Both the position numbers and the translations under genes were made by a program. The notes beneath the pieces were generated by a model, which saw only the letters and a list, made by a program, of their open reading frames with translations, did not search any database and was not told the DNA's origin. From an uncultured Bacteroidota bacterium (GTDB taxonomy: Bacteria > Bacteroidota > Bacteroidia > AKYH767-A > OLB10): a DNA stretch of 64,000 nt. Where the stretch lies: NCBI GenBank assembly GCA_900696575.1, contig CAADHD010000025.1:149753-213752 (forward strand). The letters run 5' to 3'. Position 1 is the first letter of the stretch; the number at the start of each line of letters is the position of its first letter. Below are positions 34,397 through 39,066 of the stretch, one piece after another.

Positions 34397-36439
34397 ATGA
34401 AGAAAATTTACGGATTGATAGCAGCCATACTGCTTCCATTCATTGGTATTAGCCAATGTACAACCACCAATGCCACAAGCTGTGTATGCCTTGACCTTAC
34501 ACAAAGCAATTGCGACCTGTTACCTGATATTAAATTAGGTCCTCCGCCCTTTTATGCTCAGGGCAACAATGGAATAATTGAGTACCCTCAAATCTGCAAT
34601 CCTCCCTGCCAGGGAAATGACGGAAGATTGAGAATTTCGGTAAGCACTCCGAATATCGGGGTAGGTCCGTTAACCGTTCGTACTACTACTACGTTTGTAT
34701 GCGGTCAGGATACATTTTATGGTGCCTCACCCGGTATTTGCCCCAATGGCGATCCGCCAAAACAATTGATTGTACAGCGTGTGTATCATAAAAACGGAAA
34801 CACCATGACATATTACGACCGCGCTGCCGGATCTATGACTTACCATCCCACTCATGGCCACATGCACGTGGATGATTGGGGAATTTATACTTTACGAGAT
34901 AATAACGGAGACCCTGATCCGCTTAACTGGCCTATCATTGGCACAGGAGCTAAGCTTGCTTTCTGTCTGATGGATTACGGCTCCTGTTCCACCTATAACG
35001 GACATTGCCTCGATGACAACGGAAATGTTTTAGTAAACGGTAATTTTCCTAACTGGGGATTAGGCGGTGGCAATTACAACTGTTCGGCTACAGAACAGGG
35101 TATCAGTTCAGGATACACAGATATTTATTATCAATACTTAGATGGAATGTGGATTAACTTACCTCCGGGTTTGTGCAACGGACAATACTGGATTGTTGTT
35201 CAGATTGACCCGTACGACTACTTTCTTGAATCTAATGAAAATAATAATGTCTATGCATTTCCGTATGCACTCACTCAGCAAAATTCCGGAGGCACCGCAA
35301 GTATTACTGCTATAGGGCCAACAACTATTTGTCCGGGAGAAACAACAACACTTTCGGCCAATAGCGGTACTTCATATCTTTGGTCAAACGGTGCTACTAC
35401 ACAAACCATACTGGTGAATACGGCCGGAACTTATACTGTTACGGTAAGCTCAGCCTGCGGAACAGCAACTTCACAACCGGTTTCAGTTTCTTTAACCTCC
35501 ACTCAACCACCTTCCACAACAGACGACTCCGTATGCTTTGTGGGTTCCGGCATTTTAACCGCTTCCGGAACAGGTGATATTAACTGGTACGATGCTCAAA
35601 CAGGTGGCAACCTGGTTGGAACCGGAAGTTCATTTACAACTCCGGTACTTACAAGCAGTACAACCTATTATGCTGACAATACCGATACTTTTTTAGGACC
35701 GGTGAATTTTGCACCGCCTCACAATAATTTAATAGGTAACGGTGGCAATCATACCGACCCGACACGCTATCTCATTTTTAATGCATTAACTGATTTAACG
35801 CTTGTTTCCGTTAAAGTCTATGCCCAGGGTGCCGGCAACAGAATCATTGAACTTAGGGATAACAACAATGCCGTACTTCAATCGGTAACTGCGTTTGTTC
35901 CTGATGGTGAAAGCCGTATAACACTTAACTTCAACATCATGGCAGGTACTAATTACAGACTCGGCACAGGCAATACTCCTGATATGTTCAGAAATAACAG
36001 CGGGGTTCAGTATCCTTATGATGTAAATGGTTTTGTTTCCATTACCAGTTCATCGGCAGGAGCACAGTTTTATTATTTCTTTTACGATTGGGAAGTGAAA
36101 GGACCTGATATGGTTTGCACCAGTTTGCGCTCACCAGCAACCATGCATGTGCAGAATTGCCTTGGCATTGATGAAAACGAAACTTCATTAATTGCTTCGC
36201 TGTTTCCAAACCCGAACAAAGGATTACTTTCCGTTCAGTTGAAGAATACAGCCAATGCCGATATTAAACTGAGTATTACCGACCTCAGTGGAAAAATAGT
36301 AATGCAGCAATCGTTCAGCAAAGTTGCTGCCGGCTTTAATACTTCGTTGAATCTGGAAGGAACTGCTTCAGGTACCTATTTGTTAAAGGCCGCTGTAAAC
36401 GGAACAGAAAGCATTCAGAAATTTACAATCATTGAATAA
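34397..36439 (+). CDS. Secreted lysyl oxidase-like protein with T9SS sorting domain
   Basis: A 680-residue exported protein. The signal peptide is MKKIYGLIAAILLPFIGISQ, and a frame-open Met 23 codons earlier is less likely. Residues 75-290 resemble the lysyl oxidase catalytic domain: a copper-site block HPTHGHMHVDDWGIY (His153, His155, His157, with His150 nearby). Next come GAKLAFCLMD, where Lys186 matches the quinone-forming Lys, and a Tyr-rich GYTDIYYQY. IVVQIDPYDYFLESNENNN matches the family end. Two Ig-like segments (about 305-450), a beta-rich region and a type A T9SS sorting domain (from LFPNPNKGLLSVQL) complete it. It probably oxidises amines or lysines outside the cell; activity is inferred. 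Confidence 0.85.
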   Translation: MKKIYGLIAAILLPFIGISQCTTTNATSCVCLDLTQSNCDLLPDIKLGPPPFYAQGNNGIIEYPQICNPPCQGNDGRLRISVSTPNIGVGPLTVRTTTTFVCGQDTFYGASPGICPNGDPPKQLIVQRVYHKNGNTMTYYDRAAGSMTYHPTHGHMHVDDWGIYTLRDNNGDPDPLNWPIIGTGAKLAFCLMDYGSCSTYNGHCLDDNGNVLVNGNFPNWGLGGGNYNCSATEQGISSGYTDIYYQYLDGMWINLPPGLCNGQYWIVVQIDPYDYFLESNENNNVYAFPYALTQQNSGGTASITAIGPTTICPGETTTLSANSGTSYLWSNGATTQTILVNTAGTYTVTVSSACGTATSQPVSVSLTSTQPPSTTDDSVCFVGSGILTASGTGDINWYDAQTGGNLVGTGSSFTTPVLTSSTTYYADNTDTFLGPVNFAPPHNNLIGNGGNHTDPTRYLIFNALTDLTLVSVKVYAQGAGNRIIELRDNNNAVLQSVTAFVPDGESRITLNFNIMAGTNYRLGTGNTPDMFRNNSGVQYPYDVNGFVSITSSSAGAQFYYFFYDWEVKGPDMVCTSLRSPATMHVQNCLGIDENETSLIASLFPNPNKGLLSVQLKNTANADIKLSITDLSGKIVMQQSFSKVAAGFNTSLNLEGTASGTYLLKAAVNGTESIQKFTIIE

Positions 36440-37144: not shown

Positions 37145-38497
37145 TTATTTTTTTATTCCGCTTTCGAGGTTAATAAGTTCATCGCCTTCTTCATAAGGCA
37201 AATACTGAAAAATAAACTGAAACATCTCATCCGTAGTTTTCATACTGGTGGTTTTCTCATTGATGGCGCGAGGCGGATGAAACGGATTATTGGGATTATT
37301 AACCGTATTATCAAACGTTCCGAAAGCCCAAATAACGGAGCCGCCCGGTATGCGTACAGGATTCTTAAAAATATAAGTGTATTGCCAACGGAAATCCCAC
37401 CGAGGAATAGAGACCAACGGAATTGTATCATTAGTCGGAGTAACGGCAAAAGCTTTATATGTCTTGCCAAGAAGATGCATGTGCGGATTAACGCTGATCA
37501 GAGAGATGTCGCTTTTTATCAACGCCCTTGTATGAAATGTTTTGACTGCATTGGCCGGAATATCAAACTTCGGAACAATGTCGGAAACGCCCAGCGTTCC
37601 CAACTGGGTTTCGAGCAATGGCCTGAGCGGAGGCTTTTCCATAAAAAAAACATTGAGATAAGAATTATCGGTTGTATCAACCGGTGAAGGACCATAATGC
37701 TGATCATTGAGAAGAAAAGCACCTTTCTTTTTTACTTTAAATCCCCCGATACCTTCGGGAAAAACAAGAGGATTCATGCCGGGCAGATGATTAAAAGCAG
37801 AAACTGTTAGTAAAGGATAACTTCCATCATCCTGAATTAAAGTAATGAAACGGAAAAGAGCATCCATGTTTTCAAAACTGTCGCGCACGGCATAAAATGG
37901 AGGTGTAAAAACATCTTTCTTTTTGTCAGCATCGTATTGAATGATATGTCCATTGGTGTGATGCACCAAAGCACGGTTGCCCGGAACATATTCAATAGCA
38001 CGAATGAAAGTATCCTGAGGTAATTCAAACGGAACTTTTACCACCATAAAACGATCGGTATTATCGCCCGGAAGTTTTACAGGCTCCATGAATCGGACAA
38101 CTAAATCAGGCGTGCCTAACTGCGAACCGGAAGAAAACTGTGGATACCTAACAGACAAAGTATCACCGGCAGGGCAGTCATCATCCACCCATTGGGCAAT
38201 CATGCTTATTTCATCCTCGGTAAGTCTTTTCTCTCCGATAAAAGAACGGTAATCAGGATCAGCAGGCCAGGGCGGCATAAAGCGCGACTGAGTAACGCGC
38301 TTTATTGTTTTGGATTTCCTTACAACATCATGATAGGTTATTAATGGAAAAGGTCCTGCCTCCCCTGCCCTGTGACATGGTGTGCAGTTTTTATGAATCA
38401 CCGGTGCAATATGTTCAGCAAATTCATACACTGTTTTTTTGCGTTTGCACGAGACCACTGCCACAAAAGCAAAAAGAAATAAAACTGCTTTTTTCAT
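37145..38497 (-). CDS. Cytochrome c / PHM-like type II copper monooxygenase lipoprotein
   Basis: A 450-residue lipoprotein (lipobox VVSC, Cys17). Residues 30-110 are a c-type heme domain with CTPCH (Cys38, Cys41, His42) and a likely distal Met in RFMPPWPAD (Met74). The rest resembles the peptidylglycine monooxygenase (PHM) fold: His179-His180 in HHTN and His267 in QHYG match the CuH ligands. HMH (339-341) and Met425 in DEM match CuM. PHM-type enzymes hydroxylate carbon with O2 and an electron donor; the heme could supply electrons. The substrate is unknown. The ATG overlaps the redoxin stop by four bases, so the two are coupled. Confidence 0.85.
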   Translation of the reverse strand: MKKAVLFLFAFVAVVSCKRKKTVYEFAEHIAPVIHKNCTPCHRAGEAGPFPLITYHDVVRKSKTIKRVTQSRFMPPWPADPDYRSFIGEKRLTEDEISMIAQWVDDDCPAGDTLSVRYPQFSSGSQLGTPDLVVRFMEPVKLPGDNTDRFMVVKVPFELPQDTFIRAIEYVPGNRALVHHTNGHIIQYDADKKKDVFTPPFYAVRDSFENMDALFRFITLIQDDGSYPLLTVSAFNHLPGMNPLVFPEGIGGFKVKKKGAFLLNDQHYGPSPVDTTDNSYLNVFFMEKPPLRPLLETQLGTLGVSDIVPKFDIPANAVKTFHTRALIKSDISLISVNPHMHLLGKTYKAFAVTPTNDTIPLVSIPRWDFRWQYTYIFKNPVRIPGGSVIWAFGTFDNTVNNPNNPFHPPRAINEKTTSMKTTDEMFQFIFQYLPYEEGDELINLESGIKK

Positions 38498-39066
38498 TTC
38501 CTTCTCTCAATAAAACATCCAACAGGTTTTGTTTTTTTAACGCTGACGTATTTATTGTTCAGCATACTTTCCACTGCATCCTTCAGATAATGCTTACTTA
38601 CCACCTGACGTTTTACCGTTAAATCAACAGCAGCATCATCAATGGCTCCTGAATAAATTACCTCCATATTTTTATTCAAGAGAAAAACTTCGGGAGTAAT
38701 GGCAGCTTTAAGTTTCCGGGTGAGTTTTAATTCTTCATCATACAGCAAATCAAACGGAATGTGATAACGGCTTTTATACTGAAGAACTTCTTCCATACCT
38801 GAATCCTTCCCCGGAATTATTCCGATAAATGCTATTAATTCAGAATAATCACCAAATAAATTTTTCAGTGGCAGCGTGTAATACTGCGAAAGCGGACAAT
38901 CAGGAGCCAGAAAGATGATTACCATTCCCTTTCTTCCGTCCATGAATTTATTCAGACTTACCGGTTCTCCGGATAAATTTCTTAGAGATAAATCCATGAT
39001 GCTCTCCTGCATACAAGATATCAGCATTGAAAACAAAATGAAATTCAAAAGCAGCAACCGTTTCAT
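38494..39066 (-). CDS. Redoxin (AhpC/TSA-Redoxin fold) lipoprotein
   Basis: A 190-residue thioredoxin-fold protein. A hydrophobic start ending LISC (Cys18) makes it a probable lipoprotein. The active-site position reads APDCPLSQYY, with one Cys instead of Cys-x-x-Cys. A second Cys occurs in the tail KPVGCFIERRK, a C-terminal motif that I associate with redoxins encoded beside cytochrome c/copper monooxygenases. It may reduce or load copper on its partner downstream. The gene overlap of four bases supports this pairing; the exact role is inferred. Confidence 0.82.
   Translation of the reverse strand: MKRLLLLNFILFSMLISCMQESIMDLSLRNLSGEPVSLNKFMDGRKGMVIIFLAPDCPLSQYYTLPLKNLFGDYSELIAFIGIIPGKDSGMEEVLQYKSRYHIPFDLLYDEELKLTRKLKAAITPEVFLLNKNMEVIYSGAIDDAAVDLTVKRQVVSKHYLKDAVESMLNNKYVSVKKTKPVGCFIERRK

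Follow-up and report, generated by a model that had tools for sequence, protein, structure and literature searches.

A type IX-tagged lysyl oxidase homologue of an uncultured Bacteroidota bacterium, putatively delivered to the cell surface

The 64,000-nucleotide stretch of Bacteroidota DNA analysed here (the window) contains a gene that raises the question of whether a bacterial protein with a type IX secretion system (T9SS) tail is a lysyl oxidase (LOX) and, if so, what it could do once exported. A sequence-only reading had described the product as a secreted lysyl oxidase-like protein with Ig-like modules and had named a profile search and a structure model as checks. The results indicate that the protein is related to the collagen-cross-linking animal enzyme and that it may modify proteins outside the bacterium.

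Gene, modules and export route

The reading frame is open from 34328 (703 codons), and the start at 34397 gives a product of 680 residues whose N-terminus, read by eye, is a Sec signal peptide (MKKIYGLIAAILLPFIGISQ) without a lipobox, the first Cys being preceded by Q. The features of the protein are collected in Table 1. The Ig-like module and the T9SS tag of the earlier reading are both supported by matches above the curated cut-offs, respectively to Ig_7 (PF19081) and to the sorting domains PF18962 (E 8e-13) and TIGR04183 of NCBIfam (E 3.8e-10), and the T9SS components SprA and GldL are encoded in the same genome; the combination of Sec signal peptide, sorting domain and T9SS genes is that of a T9SS type A cargo. 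Export of the LOX homologue would proceed in two steps, Sec followed by T9SS, and end with its release or anchoring outside the cell.

In the structure model, residues 368-592 form a single Ig_7 domain interrupted by a PHR-like insert. The Ig_7 part has its closest match in the Ig domains of GhpA, the grappling-hook protein of Aureispira (Z 12.1), and the insert, modelled at pLDDT 96.6 and present in most Ig-type relatives, resembles the PHR domain of human BTBD2 (VIA: Z 11.8, rmsd 2.9, 132 aligned residues, 8% identity); on the basis of the model it is a possible binding module. This module was given no carbohydrate-binding label because Foldseek gave no match at E<=0.001 and carbohydrate-binding (CBM) structures scored Z about 7.

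Table 1. Position and basis of the features of the lysyl oxidase-like gene and its product in the window.
Feature	Position	Strand	Basis
T9SS-tagged lysyl oxidase-like protein, 680 aa	34397..36439	+	ORF, Pfam matches
Sec signal peptide, residues 1-20	34397..34456	+	Direct sequence reading
LOX catalytic domain (predicted), residues 21-295	34457..35281	+	PF01186, profile to LOXL2 5ZE3, AF2 model
Putative copper-site motif H150-P-T-H153-G-H155-M-H157	34844..34867	+	Conservation; counterpart of the LOXL2 copper site His626-X-His628-X-His630 (PMC9694262)
Lys186, LOXL2 Lys653 counterpart (putative LTQ precursor)	34952..34954	+	Profile alignment; 128/128 relatives
Tyr244, LOXL2 Tyr689 counterpart (putative LTQ precursor)	35126..35128	+	Profile alignment; 128/128 relatives
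FLESNENNN closing motif, common to LOX and CARDB domains	35222..35248	+	Pfam
Ig_7 domain, first part; resumes past the insert at ~36110-36160	35498..35698	+	PF19081
PHR-like beta-sandwich inside Ig_7, residues 434-571	35696..36109	+	AF2 model, VIA match
T9SS type A C-terminal sorting domain, residues 602-678	36200..36430	+	PF18962, TIGR04183

Lysyl oxidase identity and conserved residues

The LOX profile PF01186 matches above its cut-off (33.9 versus 20.4 bits, E 3.3e-8) over residues 226-287 only and, since this is limited to the C-terminal part of the profile, further evidence was needed. A search of the PDB with the single sequence gave no LOX match and a profile was required; when a profile of 22 relatives (A1) was searched against all PDB sequences, the top match was human LOXL2 (5ZE3, E 1.7e-5). 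The main aligned piece sets DIY (Tyr244) on DMY (Tyr689), and a second, low-scoring piece sets GAKLAFC (Lys186) on GHKASFC (Lys653); the aligned pair is spaced by 36 residues in the LOXL2 chain, the spacing of Lys653 and Tyr689, and on this basis Lys186 and Tyr244 are assigned as the counterparts of the two residues. In the same alignment Cys190 and Cys229 correspond to LOXL2 Cys657 and Cys673, and the counterpart of Cys685 is Tyr240.

The AlphaFold model of the LOX domain, built from a 59-sequence alignment, is confident (mean pLDDT 91.9, pTM 0.88), and 5ZE3 is its sole Foldseek match under E 0.001 (E 1.9e-6). In VIA-align the model superposes on 5ZE3 with Z 14.7, rmsd 2.9, 173 aligned residues and 24% identity, the next entry reaching Z 6.8. 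The earlier reading had expected the His, Lys and Tyr to converge on one site; as Lys653 and Tyr689 are 16.6 Å apart in the crystal of the LOXL2 precursor (PMC9694262), convergence is an unfair criterion for an unprocessed model.

A further reading takes the LOX match as spurious and the domain as a CARDB-like beta-sandwich. CARDB has the same last strands and the ESNENN motif, its profile PF07705 matches the C-terminal stretch at 20.1 bits, and PF1109 CARDB matches the model at Z 6.7; for this reason the closing FLESNENNN, previously taken as a match to the animal family, is indeed found in LOX but is not specific to it, the same stretch being covered by the CARDB match. That match, however, lies below its cut-off of 22.7 bits whereas PF01186 lies above, LOXL2 exceeds CARDB in fold score by 14.7 to 6.7, and the His/Lys/Tyr pattern is present in the domain, so that Pfam scores, profile match to LOXL2 and fold all make a CARDB identity extremely improbable. 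With LOXL2 far ahead in the fold match and CARDB under its cut-off, the domain is, as judged from sequence, predicted fold and residues, a true LOX homologue, and the earlier assignment stands.

Conservation was evaluated on 128 distinct LOX domains obtained from 61 relative genomes and a GTDB-wide scan (80 loci). Lys186 and Tyr244 are found in 128/128, a degree of conservation well beyond chance, and Asp242 is also invariant; Lys186 is the sole invariant lysine and Tyr244 one of two invariant tyrosines, among 11 invariant positions of which the majority are non-catalytic. These results agree with the earlier placement of the quinone-forming lysine at Lys186 and of its partner tyrosine within GYTDIYYQY, where it is Tyr244; inspection of the sequence also located His153, His155 and His157 as first numbered. 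This HxHxH triad is intact in 119 of the 128 domains, the window copy included, and a fourth histidine, His150, which by spacing matches human LOX His289 and LOXL2 His623, is kept in 109. In LOXL2, mutation of His623 lowers the content of lysine tyrosylquinone (LTQ), and His652 is needed for full LTQ formation (PMC9694262); the counterpart of the latter in the window protein is Ala185.

The other nine domains have lost the triad (for example HGHMH to GGSLY) but retain Lys and Tyr, and the tree resolves these losses into two to three events; such copies occur at loci L026, L028, L029, L043, L046, L053, L138 and L149. A His directly before the lysine, at the LOXL2 His652 position, is present in 7/9 His-lost copies versus 3/119 triad-intact ones. 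Since Lys and Tyr survive in the His-lost paralogues, their conservation by itself is no proof of LTQ catalysis and, from the alignment, may be partly structural.

Distribution, paralogues and the propeller gene

The LOX family was found in 31 of the 61 sampled relative genomes, with up to 19 matches per genome. In a profile scan of 395 genomes sampled across the phylum the family was present in just 3 and PF01186 in 4, which makes it restricted to a clade rather than general. The 80 top loci of the GTDB-wide scan belong nearly all to Bacteroidota-named genomes, with one Sphingomonadales and one 'uncultured bacterium' record. A different Bacteroidota LOX, nearer to animal LOX (PF01186 E 9e-33, motif WDVCHNHWH), was observed within a protein longer than 1100 aa (L157:1-3342).

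A second architecture of the family, P_proprotein-LOX-PKD-T9SS, is about 614 aa long and occurs in the window's genome (C33:55058-55711) and in most matches of a 4.6 Mb genome, G041, which holds about 19, nearly all of about 614 aa (including loci L037-L042 and L142-L146); the single G041 protein scanned with Pfam was of this type. These paralogues share with the window protein a LOX domain of 40-53% identity, all the catalytic residues and the T9SS tail, and differ in having an N-terminal P-domain and PKD modules.

The recurrent neighbour in the 80 related loci is a Reg_prop propeller-repeat protein of 410-440 aa with its own T9SS tail. Of 77 triad-intact copies of the Ig type, 51 are followed immediately by its gene in the same orientation, usually within a gap of ~100 bp, whereas it is adjacent in 0/25 P_proprotein-type and 0/6 His-lost copies; these counts cover copies with enough flank, use crude architecture classes, leave aside one script-called 'lost' entry (a truncated locus that lacks the motif) and, because of shared ancestry, are not independent. 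No propeller gene was found beside the window LOX gene, either among the window ORFs or in the locus comparison. The pair is present in close relatives of the window copy in two other genomes (G002 and G011, 72-73% identical) and at a paralogue in the window's own genome (G000 contig C27:228893-233854, locus L162:2394-7355), in which a LOX protein of 1198 aa with PKD-like repeats and a 64% identical domain is separated by 102 bp from a propeller of 420 aa. A partnership in trans would be a possibility for the window copy.

Of the genes that neighbour the LOX gene in the window, only that for an ArgK-type GTPase recurs in the related loci, being found somewhere within 10 of the 80. Downstream of the LOX gene, a sequence resembling the C-terminal part of copper type II monooxygenases (37145-38497, minus strand; Cu2_monoox_C below the Pfam cut-off), whose N-terminal part bears a CxxCH motif, adjoins a gene of the AhpC/TSA redoxin family (38494-39066). 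A copper-linked neighbourhood was considered and rejected, the monooxygenase-like gene recurring in 1/80 related loci and the redoxin in none; both were therefore left out of the LOX system.

Proposed function and relation to known lysyl oxidases

The window protein is most likely a surface-delivered copper/LTQ amine oxidase, in which copper would be bound by His153, His155 and His157 with the assistance of His150, and the LTQ cofactor would form from Lys186 and Tyr244 through the action of copper and oxygen. Once matured, the enzyme would oxidize primary amines, yielding aldehydes and H2O2, the most plausible substrates being lysine side chains on extracellular or surface proteins; the Ig-like and PHR-like modules would place the enzyme and, in many relatives, the LOX would work with the co-encoded, secreted Reg_prop beta-propeller. 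Taken as a whole, this explanation (T9SS export, copper/LTQ amine oxidation, positioning by modules, propeller partner in relatives) is considered probable. It is favoured by the archaeal Haloterrigena HTU-LOX, which carries the same residues and is an active, copper-dependent and BAPN-sensitive amine oxidase of broad specificity (PMC6452851), and it is weakened by Ala185 in place of His652, by the invariance of Lys and Tyr in His-lost paralogues and by the lack of a partner gene beside the window copy. Protein cross-linking is one role among several that the window protein could have; the narrower proposal, that a T9SS LOX and its co-encoded T9SS propeller form a two-protein extracellular system that oxidizes lysines and cross-links the surface or matrix, is tentative.

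Secreted lysine epsilon-oxidases such as LodA oxidize free lysine and release H2O2 against competitors, and the window protein could likewise be an active copper/quinone amine oxidase acting on free amines (polyamines or lysine), for nitrogen or for anti-competitor H2O2, and not in cross-linking. The relaxed specificity of the archaeal enzyme, for which small amines and amino acids are substrates (PMC6452851), would fit this role, as would the multi-copy expansion if substrates have diversified, and the recurrent neighbours in the 80 loci included no conspicuous gene for a collagen-like substrate; the Ig-like and inserted PHR-like modules suggest instead targeting to a macromolecular surface, and free-amine oxidation is held to be unlikely. 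Alternatively, the LOX fold could have a structural or adhesive role without catalysis, copper being optional, as the nine His-lost paralogues with retained Lys186 and Tyr244 and the mostly non-catalytic invariant positions would allow. The exact H-x-H-x-H spacing held by the window copy and the other triad-intact domains, together with the propeller gene that accompanies intact Ig-type copies and none of the His-lost ones, argues against such a role, which appears quite improbable. The preferred reading thus remains that of an exported copper/LTQ amine oxidase.

The view of lysyl oxidases as mainly animal enzymes is out of date: a survey of 2015 recorded LOX genes in five bacterial groups, Bacteroidetes among them (Grau-Bove et al., PMC4448552), so the window protein is not a new family. 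The prokaryotic LOXs of that survey and HTU-LOX share with it the His triad, the Lys and the Tyr. In the survey, prokaryotic LOXs were single-domain in all but three cases and the first His (H289) was absent from bacterial sequences (PMC4448552), whereas its counterpart His150 is widely kept in the window family. T9SS export, the propeller partner and the large paralogue expansion are features of this family that are undescribed in PMC4448552 and PMC6452851. In the open-access literature searched no description of a T9SS-exported LOX or of a LOX-propeller pair was found, and the multi-module architecture of T9SS LOXs, the presence of ~19 copies in a single genome and the downstream Reg_prop gene are each apparently undescribed there; proteins of this kind may already be named in database records. 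The clade offers several handles on the role of prokaryotic LOX (export route, conserved partner gene, two architectures, paralogue expansions, His-lost variants), which bear on where the enzyme acts, with which partner, and which residues LTQ needs.

In comparison with LOXL2 (5ZE3) and animal LOX, the window protein shares the fold, HxHxH, the fourth His, the Lys and Tyr corresponding to the LTQ precursors, the Cys657 and Cys673 counterparts and the CARDB-like closing motif. It differs from LOXL2 in its low structural identity, in the replacement of Cys685 and His652 and in the greater length of the loops that separate His, Lys and Tyr; moreover, its LOX domain is N-terminal and is followed by Ig-like modules and the T9SS tail, whereas the animal domain follows SRCR domains or a propeptide. 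Should it prove active, the window protein would represent a bacterial enzyme that is exported and cross-links proteins or produces H2O2, and engineered LOX might be derived from it; if the two-protein cross-linking proposal were true, the system would be a bacterial counterpart to the cross-linking of the animal matrix.
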